Part shown: positions 8,986-35,616 of the stretch, in pieces
How the letters are laid out: every line of letters starts with the position of its first letter
How positions within the stretch are numbered: the first letter of the stretch is position 1
Source: Sipunculus nudus
Lineage: Eukaryota > Annelida > Sipuncula > Golfingiida > Sipunculidae
Length of the DNA stretch: 64,000 nt
Direction of reading: 5' to 3'
Assembly (NCBI GenBank): GCA_026874595.1
Contig: CM049313.1
Location: 56,129,159-56,193,158, forward strand
Notes under the pieces: model-generated
The model's input: the letters and a program-made list of their open reading frames with translations, nothing else
What the model was told of the DNA's origin: nothing
Databases searched by the model: none
Program-made: the position numbers and the translations under genes

Positions 8986-9860
8986 ATATGGAAACCACAT
9001 GTAAAGTTTACGCTCGGTGCTTTAGTAGTACATTATAGTATAGTAAAGTATAGTGGTTATTTCAAATCAATCAAATCAAATGAAGCAATTTAATATTTTA
9101 AAAAAGGTTTCTGTATGTTGTATATTTTCCTATGAGACAGAAAAGTTTACTTGCAAGGCGATGGATATCTTCGTGCATACACGCGCACCGTTGGCCTTCA
9201 AGAGTCCTCCATCCCTACTCTCTAACCCACCCCCTCGAAAGGAAGGGCGACATTCGGGTTTTGCATTCGGATTCCTGTGAACGTCTGTTGAAACCTAATG
9301 AAACTTTTCATCGTTTTCTTTGACGGTTTCGAACATTTTAAAATACTTTGCGAAAGATTATAAGATATTGCATTTATTAAAAACAAATATTGATTCAGAT
9401 AAGAATGTTTTCCTATACTGATGTTGAAATATTTTGTTTGAAAAACAAATAAAATCATCGATTATACATTTGACGTAATGTCCATGTGTGTTCTGTGCTG
9501 TTTAAGTCGTCAGAAATGTATATGGAGAAAACGAAAACTAATATTGATCGTTCGTTCCTGCTTCATCATGTTGTGTGCCGTATTTCTTTGATAAGAGGCC
9601 CGGGCGTTTATTTTTTTCCAACCCTGCTTTGACCCGGCGTCTAAACAAGGCCGGCTTCTATTTAAGGCCGGCGTTTATTAAAAAATTCATTATGGGTCTC
9701 CTCAGACAAACTAAAAAATAGAACACGCCGAAGAAATAAACCCGCCGGTCACTACTTAAGGACACAATTGAAAACATTGCCGATACACGAATTATGTTTA
9801 TGACATTTCCTTAGATGCGATAGGGATATGGGACACGCGCAATCTCCACAATCACGTTTA
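8986..9860. other. Intergenic with a small GC-rich repeat-like patch
   Basis: Short overlapping frames at 9053-9458 on both strands have no domain. Near 9,595-9,690 the words CCCGGGCGTTTATT, CCCGGCGTCTAAAC and GGCCGGCGTTTATT form a degenerate repeat around a GGCGTTTA core. No gene supported. Confidence 0.5.
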
Positions 9861-12800
9861 GGTCATGGGCTGGTGGTGGTCATAGTACACCCCCTTGTGA
9901 TTTAATTTAATGGGTTTTTTCATGAAGCCCTAGGCCTAACAAGTCAGAAAATTGATGTTGTCAGCAAAAAAACTTGGATGGAAGATAACCCCCATGCACT
10001 TTTAACCACCCCTACTCTTACAGCTTGAGGCAGATAATAAGGGGTATGGTAAATTCGAGAAGCCCTTAACCACTAAAAATGTTTGCCTTGTCAAGATCGA
10101 AAAGTTCATGCAAATGATATGCAAATTTATAATGTGAAAAGGTCACAGAGGTCAAAAGGTCACAAACTTTAACCTTTCCCTATAATTTCTCGCATTATCA
10201 GGGTTTATTTATCGCCAAGACCATATAAAGGTTTTTTCATTGAAAACTAATTAAAATGAAGGTTTACATGTGCTTTTTAATACCTAGAGTCAAAACTTTG
10301 AAAAGAAGAAGTGATTACCCCCAGATATTTCTGCACTTTTACATACTTTTAGTATTGCAGAATGTGTCGAATAAGAGTTAGGCAAAGTCCAACAAGTGGT
10401 ACTTTGAAATCTTTAATTGAATCTTTGCAAATTACCACAGAAGATGTTATTTGAGTTCTCCTATAATATAAAACATCAAATTATGTGAATATTTTCATTG
10501 AAGAGTTTATTAAAGTCAAAAGTAAACAAAGGTTGACCTAAGCAACACCATAGCTGTTTGTTACACATGGTCGTTATGAAGCGTGCCACGAAATTTAAAT
10601 ATTGAAACAAATTAATATTACTTTCTATCTCTCAATTAAGTGAATTAACACATTTCCAGTGAACATTCATCCTTATTTTACCAGGTGTATCTTATTTCAT
10701 GACAGTTATATACGTTCTCAGATACTTGTCACTGGTAACATTGATCCCTGTTAACAGCAAAACCTTATTTTAATTTGACTAGAAACAGCCAATGTATTAT
10801 TCTTTTTGCATAAATACGCTTATATCACATATATCCATTTCAGTCACTAGTATACAATATATTTTATTATAATTCATATAATAATTAATAATTAATTCTC
10901 TAATTAATTACATATAATGAATATCATATATCACCTCGATATATTACTGAGGTCGTCATAGTATAATAATTGTGATAATTGATTATAAATGACAATTTAA
11001 CAAATGAATCGATCTGTATATATTTTATACTTATCCTTTAATGTCCTGCTTCCGTGCATTTTGTCGTTCTTTGGCAGTTTAGTTTATTTTATATATGGAT
11101 TCTAACTGGTACACCTGTTTCTCATTTTGACTCTGATCCAATGATTGTCTCTCCTGCGGTACATTTTACTTTCTGATTGGGTAAATGTCTATCTGTCTGA
11201 CTAAATGCCTGACTGACAGGCAGTTTGTCTAATTAGTATTCCAGCAACTGCATAGTCCATAAAAATACAGAACCACTGCCATTCGGGTTGTCAGTCTGTC
11301 AGATTATCACAGATAGTAAATACAACAGTCAGCTATATCTCTGGGAGGATATTTGCCTGATAGTCAGATTAATGACTGTATAGCTCTAGGGGCGTTCAGT
11401 CTGTTTGATTAATTAGCTAACATTCTGCTAGTCCAGGAGCCTGATTGTCTTTCTACCAATGTATATCTGGTCGACAGGTGGTCAGTTATTTTCTGACTTC
11501 CAGACTGGTAATCCACAGATGGCGTCATCAATCTATCAGGTATGTATCCTCCCAGAAAACTAACTTACTAATCTGGCAAAGTGGCCTTCAGGGAACTCAG
11601 TCAGAAAGCCTGTCAAGTAGACAACAGACCAGATAAATAATAAATATGTCAAACAGGCTGGCTGTTAGAGAGCTGGTCAGTCAGAAAGACGATAGCCGAT
11701 GAACAGCTAGAGTCATAGCCAGGTGGTGGGAATGGTTTGCCCCCAGAGCTAGTCAGAATCAGATAAAACATTGCCTGACAAGTTTTGTGAAGGTCTATCT
11801 GTCTTATCTGACTACCTACTGACTATCTGTGGTAGCCTGACTGGCAACCTCACTGGCAGTGTTTCTGTATTTTTTATGGACTATGCAGTTGCTCGAATAC
11901 AAATTAGACAAACTGCCTGTCCAGTGAGTTAGACAGAGAGACATTTACTCAAACAGAAAGCAAGATGTACTGCAAGAGAGACAGTCATTTGATCAGAGAG
12001 TCAAAATAGGTTTCAGGTGTACTGCTTAGTGTACCGATAGTGAGCCAGTCTGTCAGGGAGTTTTTTCAGTCAAGAAGATGATAGGTAGACAGATAGTCAA
12101 ATATAACAGGCGAACGAATAGACTTACAGACAGTCATAAATAAAAAAGACTGCAGGTGTCCATAAATAAAATAGACCGCAAAAATGCACAGTGGCAGGCC
12201 AATAAAGGATGAATTATAAAAATGATAAAACGATCGCTTCATCAATGAAATTGCAATTTTTAATCAATTTTCACAATTATCATACTATGACGACATCAGT
12301 AATATATCCTGGAGAGAAATAAAATTAATAATATGTAACTATGTCTTCCGTCCCATGTGGGAGACATATAGTGTTTGGGTCTGTCGTTGTCTGTGTCATA
12401 TTTTGTGATCGTGATAACTTTTGAACTAATCAACAATTTTTCATGAAATTATAAATTTTAATTGTTTCTACCAAAATCTTGGAGGAGTTTGAAAACCGGT
12501 AACCTTGATCTCCATCATCAAGTTTAAATAGTCCTAAATAGATTGGTGAACCAAATAACTTTTGAAGTATTGCATATTCCTAAAAATTGAAACACATTGT
12601 TTAAATCAAGTTTTATTTAGCTCGAAAAACTGGTGACCTTGACCTGGATCTTCAAGGTTAAATTGGTCAGAAAACAAAGTATTTGTGAACATTATAACTT
12701 TGGACCCCGCATATATTTTATTGGAATTCGTCTTGTGAAATGTTTCTACCAAAATCTCGGACATGTTCGAAAACTGGGGACCTTCATCATTATGGTCAAA

Positions 12801-14500
12801 TAGGCCGAAACAATTATTTGTGAACCCCATAACTTTAAAAGTAGCGCATATTTTTACCCCAAATTTGAAACACAATTTTTTTTTTCAAATCCCTTGAGGA
12901 GCTCGATAACTGGTGACCTTGACCTGGATATCAAAGGTCAAATAACCAGGAATAGGAATTATTTTTTAACGCTATAACTTTTGAATCACTTTATATATTT
13001 TCATGAAATTCAACTTGTGAAACGTCTCTAACAATATCTAAAAAAATTAAATATCTGGTGATCTTGACCTTCAAGGTCAAATTGGATGAAATAAAAAAAT
13101 TTTGAATGCCACAACTTTTGAAGTATCACATATTTTCCTCAAATTTGAAACATTTTTGTTTTAATCGAGATTCTTGTGGAACTCGATAACTGGTGACCTT
13201 GACCTGGATTTTCGAGGTTAAATCACCCTGAATGAAATTTCAGATCAGTTCATAACTTTGTTAGCTTGATCATCATCATACAAGGTCAAATCTTTAGAAA
13301 TGGAGGATTAACTTAACACCAAACTGTTGAAGGGGTCCATTTTTCCCCTCAAATTTGGGAAAGTGAGGCCCGTAGTGAGGGGAGACATATAGTTGTTTCT
13401 GTGTCACTAAACAGCAATCCTCTTGATAGTTAGAGAAAAAATTATTAATTATAATATGAATTATAAGAACTAATATATTGTATACTAGTGATAGAAATGG
13501 ATAAACGTGATATAAGCGTATTTATGCAAAAAAAAATAAACATTGGCAGTTAAGGGTCAAATAAAAAATTAGGGCTTTGCGGTGAACAGAGATCAATGAA
13601 CCAGTGACAGCTATCTAAGAACATATATAACTGTCATGAAATAAGATAAAAACCGGAAATAATTTGGATGAATGTTCACTGGAAATGTGTTGAGAGATAG
13701 AAAGTAAGATAACATTGTTTCAATATTAAAATTTCATTGCACGCTTCATAACGACCATGTGTAACAAACAGCTATGGTGTTGTAAGGGCCAACCTTTGTT
13801 TACTTTTGACTTAACAAACTCTTCTATGAAAATGTTTACATTATTTGATGTTTCATGTTATAGGTGAACTCAAATATCATTTTTTGTGGTCATTTACGAA
13901 GATTCAATGAAAGATTTCAAAGTACCACCTGTTAGATTTTGCCTTACTCCTATTCGACTGATTCAGCACTACATACAAAAAGTATGTGAAAGTGCAGAAA
14001 TATCTGACACACCGCGGGGTAATCACTACTTCTTTTCAAACTTTTTGACACCAGGTGTCAAAAAGCACATGTAAACCTTCATTTTAATTAATTTTCAATA
14101 AAAAAACTTTATATGGTCTTGGTGATAAATAAACCCTGATAATGTAAGAAATTGTAGGTAGAGGTCAAAGTTTGTGACCTTTAGACCTCTTGTGACCTTT
14201 TCACAGAATAAATTTGCATATCATTTGCCTGGACTTTTCAATCTTGACAAGGCAAACATTTAAAGTGGTCATTTGAAATATTTTTGTAAAGAGTTGCAAA
14301 GTTAGGGCTTTTTGAATTTTCCATACCCCTAATTATCTGCCTACAGCTGTAAAAGTAAAAGTGCATGGGGGTATCTTCCATCCCAGTGTTTTTGCGGGCA
14401 ACATCAATTTTCTGATTTGTTAGAACTATTGCTACATGAAAATACCCATTAAAGTAAATCACAAGGGGGATGCACTATGACCCCTACTCGCCCGTGGCCT
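9861..14500. mobile_element. Giant fold-back element with arms of about 1.7 kb, TA-flanked
   Basis: The left arm (9861 to about 11,560) and right arm (about 11,561-12,335 plus 13,416-14,500) are inverted copies over nearly their whole length. Left terminus GGTCATGGGC faces GCCCGTGGCC on the right, each next to a TA. Matching inverted words run all the way inward: CATAGTACACCCCCTTGTGA with its right counterpart; GTTTGCCTTGTCAAGAT; CAAATGATATGCAAATTTAT; AATGAAGGTTTACATGTGCT; ACCATATAAAG; GCTGTTTGTTACACATGGTC; GGAAATGTGTT; CACTAGTATACAATATATT; TACTGAGGTCGTCATAGTAT; TTTTATGGACTATGCAGTTG. The centre is rich in CTGACTGTCTG-like short repeats. No transposase ORF is present, so the element looks non-autonomous. 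By eye the arms match at roughly four positions in five. The family is unknown; TA flanks and long inverted arms fit a foldback-type DNA transposon. Confidence 0.85.
12340..13412. mobile_element. Tandem-core element inserted in one arm of the fold-back element
   Basis: Absent from the matching place in the left arm (about 10,890-10,910), so it arrived after the arms formed or was lost from the other arm. It begins near the palindrome TCCCATGTGGGA followed by GACATATAGTGTTTGGGTCTG, and ends with GGGGAGACATATAGTTGTTTC. The core has six copies of a unit with CTGGTGACCTTGACCTGGAT, at about 12,498, 12,632, 12,776, 12,912, 13,057 and 13,192. Spacings alternate near 135 and 145 bp, so the true period is a dimer of about 280 bp. 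Non-coding. Confidence 0.75.
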
Positions 14501-14655
14501 AGTACCATAATAAGAATTAACGGGGAATCACAGCGAGAGACTGCAGTTGTTGACAAGAATCTGTCCGCGTGGGCCTCTTGAAACCAGTTACCCAGGTGTT
14601 TCATATGGCTGTTCTATTATTTTATACCGCGTGTTTTTGGTTACATTGTTTCCCT

Positions 14656-16742: not shown

Positions 16743-17357
16743 TGGTATGTGACATTTACTGCCGAAAATATTTCTGAAAATATTATTGTCGACAAGAGTA
16801 AATACTATTTTTAACTTTAAAGTTTATCTCAGAAGCGTAGTTTTGGTTACAGTAGGGACGCCCATAAAAGCGCTTCAAAAATGAAAGCAAGGAGCGTACA
16901 ACCACAGTGGTCTAAAGGACAAATGCGTTCAAACGAAGAAACGGCGCAGATCCTACGTTCATCAGTAGACTAACAAAACAGAACTTAGCTTTCATTTTGT
17001 CAATATGACCTACAGCGAGAATCTGCCCTAATAGCCGACACAGGCCATTAATGTTTACTTTTGCAAGAGTATACTTTCTTTTACAACGTTTACAGTCAGA
17101 AACAACAACAACAAAAAACTCAATTTTGCATTTTTTCAAATCTGTATACATGTTCTCATAAAACCAATTGTATATGTTTTTTCCTGTCCCATAGCCATGC
17201 ATATAAAAAGTAGCGTATTTGATGTATTTGGCATTTGATGAAACAATTATATTTTATATATTTACATTTTCATGTTATTTGTGTGCCTGGTTTTCTAGCC
17301 TACGAACCTACTTGGCACTTCAGATCATGAACTAATTAATTCGTGTTTGCTTTCGTT
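16743..17357. other. Intergenic, no gene
   Basis: AT-rich. Frame 17,202-16,912 (-) has no recognisable domain. No RNA gene or transposon terminus seen. Confidence 0.5.
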
Positions 17358-17358
17358 T

Positions 17359-18507
17359 TTAGCTCAGCTGACTGAAAGTCATCAGAGCCATAGCGATCCC
17401 CCTTTGTCCGGCGTCCGTCTGTCCGTCCGTTCGTTAACCAGGCACAAATCGTAACTGCTTGACCTGGAATCTTTTTACTTGAAATCCTGGGAGGTCCATA
17501 AAAATCTCCTTGGCATCATGAAATAAGGTCTCTATTACCCATATTCTTTGAGCTATGGGGCTCCGAGGTACCCCCTCCCCAGAATAATGGAAAATTTGAT
17601 AAAAAAAAATGCTCAAGTATATGAACAACTTATGCATTGATCACAATGATTATTTGCATGGATATTGATCATGGAGTGTCTCATCAGTTTCTGCAGGCTG
17701 TTGGTGCTACCTGTATTTTTTCGATTTTTTACGATTTTTTTTTCTCTATTTTTTTACCTTAAAAGATGCGGTCATCTGTTAACAGGGCACAAATCTTAAC
17801 GACTGAACCTGAAATCTTCTAACTAGGATGCTTAGTAACCCCCCACCCCAGAATAATAAAAATTTGATACAAAAGCTCAAGTATATGAACAACTAAAGCA
17901 TTGAACACCAAAGTTCTTTGTATGCATATTGATCATGGAGTGTTTCATCAGTTTCTGCAGACTGGTGGCGCCATCTTGATTGTTTTCGAACCCTTAAGCA
18001 TATTTTTATACAATATTTTAAACCTTTAAAGATGCGGTCGTCTGTTAACAGGGCACAAATCAATACCAATATACCTTGAATCTTCTTATTCGACATCCTA
18101 GGAGGTCCATAAAGAATCTTCTCTGCTATCCATATTCTTTAAGCTATGGGGCTCAGAAGTACCCTCAGAATAATTAAAAGTTTGATTCAAAAACTCCAGT
18201 ATCTGAACAATTAATGCATTGATCGCCATGATATTTTGTATGCACATTGATCATGAAGTGTTTCATCAGTTCCTGTAGACTGGTGGCACAACCAAGAATT
18301 TTTCTGAATTTTTAGCATTTTGTCTCTATTTTGGAGACCTTTAAAGATGCAGTTGTTTGTTAGCAGGGCATAAATTGTTGCCACTGAGTCTTGATGAACT
18401 TGAGCTTATATGCATGAACTATGATGCCACCTACATAATCATAATTAGTTGACTGTGCGAGGACATACTGTCAACATGCCAGTACTGTAACCATGGGTCA
18501 CTTGTTT
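17359..18507 (+). mobile_element. HINE-like (Helentron-type non-autonomous) element, copy A
   Basis: 5' end: hairpin AGCTCAGCTGACT-GAA-AGTCATCAGAGCC at 17,361-17,389, then a GTCCGTCC-type run (17,406-17,431). The core is tandem units each beginning GTTAACCAGGCACAAAT or similar at 17,433, 17,778, 18,044 and 18,359 (the second is shortened by a deletion). Each unit holds AGCTATGGGGCTC, GATATTGATCATGGAGTGT and CTGCAGACTGGTGGCGCCA. The 3' end is CATGGGTCACTTGTT. This order (5' subterminal inverted repeat, microsatellite, tandem core, 3' hairpin) matches published Helentron/HINE architecture. No coding capacity. A minus-strand frame at 17,893-18,096 is a repeat artefact. Confidence 0.8.
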
Positions 18508-25920: not shown

Positions 25921-26562
25921 CTAAAGTTGATATATTTAAAATATTTCACATATTCAAAATAGTTTTTAATGGTCCCGTATTAAGCCATGATTTGTAATTG
26001 TTCTACCTACGATCAAAATTCTGGGAAAGCTGCTGTGTGGTAGGCTTGTAGTTTCCCGTTACTAGGAGACCAGATGGGTGCTTTAAAGTCAGTTCAATCA
26101 AGGTACTTTGTATCCTTGAAGCTCTGTCGACGGAGTTAATCATCATTTTATACACTACATTATAACCCGAGTTTGTCACAAAAGGTGTCAGATGGACTTG
26201 AGGAATGCCTGTATAGGGATGCCTTCAATTACCTTGCATGTCACATCACGTGGTTCAATTAAGGTGGCATCCCTGGGAAAACTTCCTTCTGTCAGATTAA
26301 ACCAAAAGGTGGTTTAAATTAATCTTTTACCCCAAAAGTTTATTGTCCTATTTAAACCTTGATACAGTGTTATTTTATAGTATATGTATGGACGAAATAT
26401 TAATTCACTTTCGTGTTATTTTTATATAAACTAAAAATATGAAACTATTAACAAATGAGCTATTCTGACCACCCAGTTAGAGCACCCATTAAGAAGCTCC
26501 CAGGGATTATGTTTGCGGCTGATTTAGAATCTACTTTCGACACAATTTTATTTTGACAGTTT
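25921..26562. other. Intergenic, no gene
   Basis: AT-rich, unique-looking; no ORF or repeat recognised. Confidence 0.5.
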
Positions 26563-27446
26563 TTAGCTCGGCTGACTTTCAGTCATGCTGAGCTATAGCG
26601 ATCACTCTTTGTCCGTCGTCCGTCTGTCTGTCCGTCTGTCCGTCTGTCTGTCCGTTAACCAGGCACAAATCGTAAAGACTGGACCTAGAATCTTCATTCT
26701 TGACATTCTGAGAGGCCTATAAAAAGTCTCCATGGAAACCAGAAATTAGGTCTCTGTTACCCATATCCTTCGAGCTATGGGGCCCCAAAGTACCCCCCGC
26801 CCCGAATAGTGAAAATTCCATACAAAAACTTCAATATCTCATTACCTACATCACTGATGGTCGTGATTTTTGGCATACATATTGATCATGAGATGTTTCA
26901 TCAGTTTCTGCACACTGGGTGCGCCACCTCTATTTTTTCAAATTTTTACAAATTTTTTACTCTATTTTTGAGACCTGTAAAGATGTGGTTATCTGTCAAC
27001 AGGATACAAATTGTAACATCTGGACCTAGAATCTTCATTCTTGTCATGCAAGGAGGCCCATGAAAAGAGTCTGTGGAAACCTGAAATTAGGTCTCTGTTA
27101 CCCATATCCTCCAAGCTATAGGACTCCAAAGTATCCCTCAGAATAATGGAAAATTTGATACAAAAGCTGAAGTATCTGAACAACTAATCCAGACACCATG
27201 CTTCTTTGCATGGATATTGACCATTAAGTGTCTTTATTAGTTTCTGCAGACTGGTGGAGCCACCTGTATTTTTTTTTATTTTTTCTCTATTTTTTAGATA
27301 TATTAATACAGACACAATCTCAGCCTGTTGGTTAATCTGTTTGATGCTTCAGTTGAATGGGTATATACTACCATTCAGATGATAAAATTTCCTTTTGCAA
27401 AGATCTTCCCAGTCAGCTGAGCGTCATGACCTATGGGTCACTTGTT
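26563..27446 (+). mobile_element. HINE-like element, copy B
   Basis: 5' hairpin AGCTCGGCTGACT-TTC-AGTCATGCTGAGCT (26,565-26,594), then TTTGTCCGTCGTCCGTCTGT and further GTCC repeats to about 26,653. Two core units begin GTTAACCAGGCACAAAT (26,654) and GTCAACAGGATACAAAT (26,995), 341 bp apart. The 3' end has AGTCAGCTGAGC, the inverse of the 5' AGCTCAGCTGACT, then GACCTATGGGTC, a stem-loop, and ACTTGTT. This copy shows the full set of subterminal inverted repeats and the terminal hairpin most clearly. Confidence 0.85.
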
Positions 27447-30652: not shown

Positions 30653-31607
30653 AACATGTGACCCACGGGTCATGACGCTCAGCTGTTTAAGAAGACATTC
30701 GCAAAATTATTTTTATCATCTGGATGCCAAATTCTGTAGGTGGTATCCCATTAAAATGAAGCTAAGCTTGAAGGTTATTGGTAACAGAGACCTAATTTAA
30801 GGTTTCTTAGGAGATTTTTTAAGGACCTGCCTGGATGTCAAGTTAGAGAATCTAGGTGCAATGGTTACGATTTGTGGCCTGTTAATGGACACAAATATCT
30901 TTGAAGGTTTTTAAAGATTAAAAAACTGTATAATTTGAAAAAAAAAGTCCAGGTGGCGCCACCAGTCTGCAGGAACTGATGAAACCCTCCATGACAAATA
31001 TGCATGCAAAGAATCATGGTGACCAATGCATTAGTTGTTCAGATACTTGAGTTTTTGTAACAAATTTTTAATTAATCTGGGAGGGAGGGTTCATAGCCCA
31101 CAGGATATGGGTAACAGAGACGTAATTTCAGGTTTTCAAGAATTTTCAATGTTTTTCAAGATAGATGATTCTAGGTCCAATGGTTACGATTTGTGTCCTG
31201 TTAACAGACAACCACATCTTTGAAGATTTCAAAAATAAAGAAAAAAAAGGAAAAAAATTAAAAAACGCAGGTGGCGCCACCATTCTACAGGTAATGATGA
31301 AACATCAATGCATTAATACTTTAATAATATGAGCTTTTTATCAAATTTAAATTATTCTTGGGGGGGGGGGTACTTTAGAGTACTTTATCTCGGAAGATAT
31401 GGGTAACAGAGAACTAATTTCTGGTTTCCAAGGAGAATTTTCATGGATCAACTTAGATGTCGAGATAGAAGATGCCCTATTAATATACGGACGGACAAAC
31501 AGAAAGACAGACAGAAGCACAGGCAGACAGACGGATAGCTAGACAGACGGACGACGGACAAAGAGTAATCGCTATAGCTTAGATGACTTTCAGTCAGCTG
31601 AGCTAAA
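30653..31607 (-). mobile_element. HINE-like element, copy C (reverse orientation)
   Basis: Read on the minus strand: 5' hairpin AGCTCAGCTGACT-GAA-AGTCATCTAAGCT (31,604-31,576), then GTCCGTCGTCCGTCTGTCTA and more GTCC repeats, then two core units with CTGTTAACAGACAC-like starts (about 31,200 and 30,885, about 319 bp apart) containing GGTGGCGCCACC. It ends AGCTGAGCGTCATGACCCGTGGGTCACATGTT. Same family and layout as copies A and B, diverged. The plus-strand frame at 31,035-31,223 is an artefact. Confidence 0.83.
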
Positions 31608-33727: not shown

Positions 33728-35616
33728 CTAGATGTGTCGGTAAGACACGAATGCCCCCGCCTGGGGCAAATTAGAAACATTTGTTAAATTTTGTAAATTT
33801 TTTTTTAAGTTCAGGAGGTGTTGTATGGTCAAAAGTAGGTCAAGAAGGGCAAAATGCAAACTCGATCTGTAAAGGGTCATTATCAAGGAACACACCAAAA
33901 ATCAGGCCAGTATGCAGGCATTGGGAAAAAAAGTCCATACATAGGCATTTTTCATTAAAAATTTCTGTCTTTCATGAAATTTTCTATGTTCAGGACCTGT
34001 CATATGGTCAAAAATAGATTAACTGGGACGAAACGCGAACCCGACCTGTAAGTGGTCATTATGCGCCCACAGACCAAACATTGGGCCAGTATCTGTAAGC
34101 ATTGCATTGCGAAACTAGAATATTAGCAAAAGCTGGTAATCAGTTATAAATTTAAATTGAAGAGGTATGTACCATGTTTTATAACAATCCACCAAATGCT
34201 TCCTGAGAAATATCCCCCTAAGTTTTTTTTCTATACTAAGCTCTGTGACCTTGAAAAGTAGGTCAAGACCACCCATCTTTGAACCTGACCAAGATTTTGT
34301 AAATATGATGCAAAAGCACTGAAGTAATGAAGTTCCTTAGTTGAATACCTTTGGAGATATCCTGCACAAAGGCCAAAATTGAAAAATCCGATAAAATTTC
34401 ATTAAAAAATCAAAAATTGCAGGTGACGCCACCAAAATTGTGCAGCACGTACAGACCATCAGTCCCAATAATCATAGTAAGTTTTGTGAAAATCCACACA
34501 ATGGTTCCTGAGATATAAGCTCCTGAGTGTTTTATTATAATCAGCTCTAAAATGTAGAAAAAATGGGTCAAGGTCACCCATCTTCGAACTTAACCGAGAT
34601 TTTATCAATATACATCTTCACTGATGAAATAAAATTCCAACAGTGAATCCTTTTAGAGATATCCCGCTCACAAGGTAAAAGTTAACAGACGCGGAACGGA
34701 CGGACGGACGGACGGACACCTGACAGACAGATGGACGGATAGACGGACAGCTTGGGTGACAACAATAGCCCATCAGCCTATGAGCTGAGGGCTAAAAACG
34801 GCTGTACATGTACATTTGTCATGAATATTTATATTTTTCCTGAAATTTTCTATGTTTAGGAGCCGTAAAACAATCAAAAGTAGGTCAACCGGGACGAAAT
34901 GCGAACTCGATCTGTAACTGGTCATTATCTGCATACACACTAAAAATCAGGCCAATATCTGCAGGCATTGCGAAAAAAAGTCCGTACATGAGTATTTGTC
35001 ATGAAAATTTCTATTTTTCATGAAATTTTCTAAGTTAAGGAGCCGTAAATGGTCAAAAGTAGGTCAACCGAGACGAAATGCGAACTCGATCTGTAACTGG
35101 TCATTATCTGCCCACACACCAAAAATCAGGCCAATATCTGCAGGCATTGCGAAAAAAAGTCCGTACATGTGTATTTGTCATGAAAATTTCTATTTTTCAT
35201 GAAATTTTCGAAGTTAAGGAGCCGTAAAACGGTCAAAAGTAGGTCAACCGGGACGAAACGCAAACTCGATCTGTAACTCGTCATTATCTGCCCACACACC
35301 AAAAATCAGGCCAATATCTGCAGGCATTGCGAAAAAAAGTCCGTACATGTGTATATGTCATGAAAATTTCTATTTTTCATGAAATTTTCTAAGTTTAGGA
35401 GCTGTAAAACGGTCAAAAGTAGGTCAACCAGAACAAAACGCGAACTCGATCTGTAACTGGTCATTATCTGCCCACACACCAAAAATCAGGCCAATACCTG
35501 CAGGCATTGCGAAAAAAAAGTCCGTACAACTGTTTGATTTCGGAAGGAAGGAAGGACGGAATGACGGACATGGGTAAAACTATATGCCCCGGCCACTTTG
35601 TGGCGGGGGCATAAAA
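33728..35616 (+). mobile_element. Hairpin-ended tandem-core element, 182-bp unit
   Basis: 5' end: stem-loop GTGTCGGTAAGACAC (33,734-33,748), then ATGCCCCCGCC (33,751-33,761). The 3' end has GGCGGGGGCAT (35,602-35,612), the exact inverse, forming part of a terminal stem-loop with ATGCCCC at 35,584. The core is about six copies of a 182-bp unit with GTCAAAAGTAGGTCAACCGG, AACTCGATCTGTAACTGGTC, CACCAAAAATCAGGCCAATA and GGCATTGCGAAAAAAAGTCC. GGAAGGAAGGAAGGACGG precedes the 3' hairpin. The array is split by the nested element at 34,128-34,797. Same general plan as copies A-C but unrelated sequence. Confidence 0.83.
34128..34797 (-). mobile_element. Nested hairpin/GTCC element inside the 182-bp array
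   Basis: Interrupts the 182-bp units between GCATTGCGAAA (about 34,104-34,114) and TGTACATGTACATTTGTCAT (34,803). Read on the minus strand it starts AGCCCTCAGCTCATAGGCTG, a hairpin, then CCAAGCTGTCCGTCTATCCG and (GTCC)n, then a diverged tandem core holding GGTGACCTTGACC-like and AGGTGACGCCACC words. The 3' end is not sharply defined. It is similar in plan and word use to the HINE-like family but a distinct family. Confidence 0.65.

Follow-up and report, generated by a model that had tools for sequence, protein, structure and literature searches.

A dispersed foldback transposon family in Sipunculus nudus and its same-ended, probably AcademX-type coding partner

The 64-kb window analysed here (C8:56129159-56193158, in a 1.43-Gb Sipunculus nudus genome searched as 153 contigs) contains a foldback element of 4643 bp at 9859-14501, the TA at each end included. 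We consider it likely that this element belongs to a dispersed, non-autonomous foldback family mobilised in trans, through cut-and-paste, by an AcademX-type transposase, whose own element carries the same ends, with duplication of 3 bp of target DNA. Dispersed copies with common ends and target duplications support the view, put forward in an earlier sequence-only reading, of a large non-autonomous foldback transposon, and long inverted arms, a middle domain and the lack of a conserved coding frame are the features by which the window element belongs to the foldback class.

Anatomy and target site

Self-comparison of the window sequence, a check of the dot-plot type, combined with an alignment of the arms, confirmed the giant fold-back and its inverted arms as well as a length of about 4.6 kb. 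The arms pair at 9859-10070 with 14501-14301 (82%, E 1e-42), 10069-10906 with 14269-13427 (85% over 861 columns), 10908-11062 with 12338-12181 (80%) and 11124-11296 with 12007-11839 (84%), a piecewise identity of 79-85%. Because good pairing stops at 11296/11839, the left arm measures about 1.44 kb rather than the 1.7 kb first proposed, and pairing almost to a centre near 11,560 did not hold, the central ~540 bp being poorly paired. The absence of coding capacity stands: no stop-free frame overlapping the foldback reaches 100 codons from stop to stop, the longest having 92. Protein pieces of the coding partner described below gave zero tblastn matches at E<=0.001 in the 64-kb window, and Rfam and tRNA scans of the same sequence were empty.

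Table 1. Features of the foldback element, in window coordinates
Feature	Position	Strand	Basis
3-bp target duplication, left side, GTT	9856..9858		3-bp duplication outside TA...TA in 18/20 copies; GTT and GTA in the window copy
Left terminus, TAGGTCATGGGC...; family form TAGGCCATGGGCTAGTGGGGGTCATAGTGCACCCCC	9859..9894	+	199 genomic places with <=3 mismatches; ends of copies
Left arm	9859..11296	+	Inverted matches to right arm, 79-85%
Central part, ~540 bp, poorly paired	11297..11838		No significant inverted match in self-comparison; weak pairing in alignment
Right arm, including asymmetric segment	11839..14501	-	Self-comparison and arm alignment
Asymmetric segment, 1.09 kb, right arm only, 280-bp subrepeats	12342..13426		Gap in arm alignment; tandem repeat; present in 18/20 loci L009-L028
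Right terminus, ...GCCCGTGGCCTA	14466..14501	-	Arm alignment and ends of copies
3-bp target duplication, right side, GTA	14502..14504		One letter different from left GTT

The asymmetric interruption noticed at the outset in one arm is real but not private to this copy. Since it recurs in 18 of the 20 fetched loci (in L009 and L020 only partly within the best piece; L023 keeps a 70-bp remnant and L022 has none), it was inherited and is not a hit on the window copy. Both of its borders lie near ACTATRTCTYCC-like motifs. A genome-wide first look gave 3173 candidates for the segment, 40 of which were scored; with so many, it may derive from an independent, abundant type of repeat that was captured early.

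Which bases are duplicated at the insertion site? We first assumed that TA was the target duplication, and the sequence-only reading had likewise placed TA flanks outside the element; agreement of the 3 bp outside TA...TA overturned this, and the TA belongs to the element. Duplication lengths of 1-8 were tested in 20 copies (the window element, the coding partner and 18 loci, leaving out L010 and L013, in which an end is missing or ragged), and the 3 bp to the left and right agree in 18 of them, the exceptions being the window copy (GTT/GTA) and L024 (TTT/TGT), each off by one letter. Shuffled pairings of the 3-bp flanks gave a mean of 2.0 agreements and a maximum of 9 in 10,000 trials. An empty paralogous site of L028, located in the DNA beside L012, continues uninterrupted across a single ATA (259/296 columns). 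From the 3-bp agreement and the empty site, we conclude that the element is 5'-TAGGCCATGGGC...GCCCATGGCCTA-3', inserted with a 3-bp duplication.

Several familiar assignments were rejected on these grounds. A Mariner/Tc1 element targeting TA does not fit an empty site that lacks an extra TA (ATA-TAGGCC...GGCCTA-ATA against a single ATA). AcademH, which duplicates 9 or 10 bp, and a Mutator-type foldback like Tetris, which duplicates 8-10 bp, do not fit a duplication of 3 bp, and matches of 8 bp at the ends occur in 0/20 copies.

Other repeats of the window lie apart from the element. A satellite-like array with a 74-bp unit (23 copies, 92% matches) spans 84-1787 and is followed by an array of 33-bp units at 2016-2545; four 180-bp units (93% matches) occupy 34804-35528, with a related stretch at 33801-34105. 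One dispersed repeat type, unrelated to the foldback, appears at 17355-18375, 26559-27296 and 30762-31318, its copies 72-84% alike and in both orientations.

The family across the genome

The genome search for termini proposed by the sequence-only reading found the 36-bp terminus, at <=3 mismatches, at 199 genomic places (93 forward and 106 reverse), against 0 for a reversed-pattern control. The left arm of the window element, used as a query, gave at least 101 genomic matches, with 40 of 254 candidates scored. When 118 ends (100 of the 199 terminus places plus 18 from the left-arm search) were paired, at least 39 convergent pairs emerged, 2.4-6.3 kb long, with two right-hand ends used twice. 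Within this list, 42 of the 118 ends stayed unpaired, and 36 of these were probed 1.2-1.8 kb inward, the remaining six being doubled ends or already fetched. Thirty-one of the 36 match the foldback interior and five do not: L065 is the coding partner, L067 has a right end like the partner's, and L069, L066 and L068 are the rest. A separate search for ends that diverge after 15 bases returned 2 genomic places.

Two loci show further features at their ends. The end at L069 adjoins frames that, by eye, resemble Gypsy pol. At L009:5380-5900, the right end and neighbouring host DNA stand in tandem triplicate, in units of ~182 bp, and this triplication probably arose after insertion.

The coding partner and the origin of the arms

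The coding partner, at C10:18004370-18011262 (6893 bp, loci L070 and L065), carries the 36-bp foldback terminus at both ends, with 1 and 0 mismatches, has inverted repeats of 94.2% identity over 584 columns, and is flanked by ACT/ACT. Its coding stretch of ~4.4 kb is broken into frames of 804, 135, 288 and 153 codons, with two in-frame stops and a frame change, and the first part of its nuclease domain appears by eye to be absent, the C-terminal motifs being present; it is a dead copy. The 288-aa C-terminal piece, as a query, gave at least 136 genomic matches (135 of 319 candidates scored), and among the matches scored those above 50% identity, self excluded, are fragments or stop-bearing. Three more distant matches lie in stop-free frames of more than 1000 aa, at L079 (843-4529, 1229 aa), L080 (1416 aa) and L081 (1019 aa), and are probably intact, putative Academ-like transposases. 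The partner is dead, its close matches are broken, and the foldback arms share only about 80-85% with it; the enzyme behind the young copies was thus not seen, which weighs against the mobilisation proposed here.

Where did two kilobase arms come from? We compared 32 arms of 16 elements with the partner. In all 32, the match to its left end runs on to 665-739 bp, but the match to its right end stops at 521-586 bp, a distance close to the length of the inverted repeat that the partner itself carries. Because every arm follows the partner's left end past that repeat, both arms come from one end type, and an inverted duplication of this left end was probably the start of the palindrome. A second, inverted copy of the left end would have been made, with template switching while a gap was being repaired as one possible route; loss of the gene would then have left a non-coding foldback, conversion between the arms would keep them alike, and the enzyme of the partner, supplied by an intact copy, would act on the foldback ends in trans. 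A somewhat unlikely alternative dispenses with the inverted duplication and starts from an ancestral element with long inverted repeats at both ends, the right end of the partner having later been replaced or shortened. It gains from the fact that the right end is known from one partner and the right end of L067 only, the two agreeing at 94% over 768 columns, and it is countered by the arms, which in 32/32 cases continue beyond the part shared with the right end of the partner and there resemble its left end. The earlier suggestion of a hairpin-mediated duplication is plausible for the origin or homogenisation of the arms in the family, but not as an event at the window locus.

Arm-to-arm conversion can be seen directly in one copy. 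Left and right arms can be told apart at 44 columns in eight core copies; these fall within columns 376-1131, the first 375 holding none. The left arm of L012 is left-type at the first 17 of the separating sites and right-type at the last 27, and over the stretch 756-1051 bp inward of the terminus it agrees with the right arm of the same copy at 295/295 positions, a comparison that gives 79-84% in the other eight core copies; this tract is an arm-to-arm conversion. Against ends that are always alike, the arms of the window copy differ more in the terminal columns than those of the core copies do; they are 0.746 alike there, gaps counted, and like ends therefore hold for the core copies only. 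A tree of arms that left out L010, L024, L025, L027 and L028 and was rooted at its midpoint groups the four arms of the window copy and L009 together (99/98); inside this group the two left arms pair with each other, and so do the two right arms, a pattern like that left by an older homogenisation.

Composite copies add another stage. In L025 and L027, each 5.3 kb long, a complete 4.5-kb element is joined to an outer piece of arm (arm positions 1-779). The inner junction is identical in the two loci and the same as the right flank of L024, a copy in which the 3-bp flanks do not agree. The outer 3-bp duplications of both composites are exact, and they appear to have moved as units with the ends of two copies, so that ends seem to suffice for movement. 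Four end pairs of 5331-5361 bp, on C1, C5, C11 and C14, occur among the 118 listed ends.

Superfamily placement and comparison with known foldbacks

To which superfamily does the partner belong? The sequence-only reading knew of no named family with these ends; the partner, through its same ends, 3-bp duplication and AcademX-like protein, gives a probable placement. Its protein family carries, at the level of motifs, an XPG-type nuclease domain: among the members covering each motif, DG and the second D occur in 8/8, EE in 9/10, and the D after EE, DxD, (C/S)D and GK each in 10/10. The Xni model matches two of ten scanned proteins, which are close relatives of each other (E 1.5e-4 and 5.1e-5). 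A nuclease profile searched against PDB sequences ranked apolipoprotein A-I (E 0.19) ahead of Exonuclease 1 (E 1.4), neither significant; phmmer and a smaller profile gave no useful match in the PDB, and a structure model of the nuclease (alignment A2, 6 sequences) reached pLDDT 41 and returned only noise from Foldseek. An acidic triad can be read in the core, which is predicted to be DDE. The core model had no Foldseek match at E<=0.001, and in a VIA search its first six rows were transposases, with other proteins, RNase-H-like or unrelated (Prp8, SPT6, UvrC and glucokinase), close below, which lends weak support to a candidate DDE transposase core of RNase-H fold.

Elements of Academ, a superfamily that has received little study, differ in what they duplicate, AcademX making 3 or 4 bp and AcademH 9 or 10, a length that seems tied to the encoded nuclease in the former and helicase in the latter (PMC10045372). 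The 3 bp found here, exact in 18/20 copies with the partner included, falls in the AcademX range, and the XPG/FEN-like nuclease domain of the partner's protein family adds to the likeness, as a DDE core would. The partner is probably a member of the AcademX branch of Academ, and the window element its non-autonomous foldback. Among the molluscs studied, Academ is almost exclusive to bivalves, in which 100 curated elements average 5565 bp and have consensus sequences described as autonomous (PMC10294476); the partner, at 6.9 kb, compares with that mean of 5.6 kb. The window element differs from such autonomous elements in being non-coding, 4.6 kb long and folded back, with arms of kilobase size. 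We found no description of an Academ foldback in the literature searched, which comprised sources other than Repbase and subscription journals, and the word foldback does not occur in the passages of PMC10294476 consulted.

Two alternatives concern the enzyme. The partner might instead represent an undescribed, Academ-like superfamily that combines a DDE transposase, an XPG-type nuclease and a 3-bp duplication without descent from Academ, the foldback being just the same; Pfam scans, in which none of the scanned proteins reaches a cut-off and DUF6589 appears sub-threshold in 4/5 relatives, leave room for this. We regard it as unlikely, as the nuclease-type domain and the 3-bp duplication fit the published AcademX (PMC10045372). 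It is likewise improbable, and slightly more so, that the foldback was moved by some other relative of the superfamily, with the C10 element a fellow passenger or a dead cousin. The divergence of the arms from the partner, the partner's own death and the relatives with long frames at three places speak for such cross-mobilisation, and the exact or near-exact 36-bp termini at both partner ends, together with the equal duplication length, speak against it, as does the intact relative L079, whose element ends were not found within the 6 kb fetched. An assembly inversion, which the hazard of large palindromes makes worth naming, or a single event that duplicated host DNA in inverted form at the window locus, is practically ruled out: dozens of copies dispersed over the genome share this anatomy, lie in different flanks and have 3-bp duplications.

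We return to a foldback mobilised in trans by the AcademX-type partner. One may speculate, and we hold this to be doubtful, that the XPG/FEN-type nuclease of AcademX transposases enables them to produce, tolerate or resolve donors that are giant palindromes. If so, kilobase foldbacks would be a natural product of the superfamily, and the homogenisation of arms a by-product of hairpin or cruciform processing.

Foldbacks with coding relatives have a precedent in Tc4 of Caenorhabditis elegans, a long-armed foldback that also occurs, less often, as a coding variant with the same ends. Tc4 is a pogo/Tc1-type element with a TNA target; the coding variant with the same ends is common to both families, whereas the element described here has three variable bases outside TA...TA. 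Tetris and Galileo of Drosophila resemble the window element in their long inverted arms, middle domain, lack of a conserved frame and non-autonomy (PMC4079207). Tetris differs in making 8-10 bp duplications, in its assignment to Mutator and in having no known coding partner, and Galileo belongs to P (PMC4079207); the window foldback, in contrast, has a 3-bp duplication and a partner with the same ends. The family is ordinary as a defective DNA transposon and unusual in its size, its probable superfamily and its recognisable partner.

In conclusion, our analysis describes a large foldback family tied to a same-ended coding partner, probably within a superfamily known for its nuclease domain. 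Its copies record stages in the history of a palindrome: the source end, an arm converted by its twin, and composites with the ends of two copies. With these ends and the relatives that retain long frames, the origin and upkeep of foldbacks become testable.
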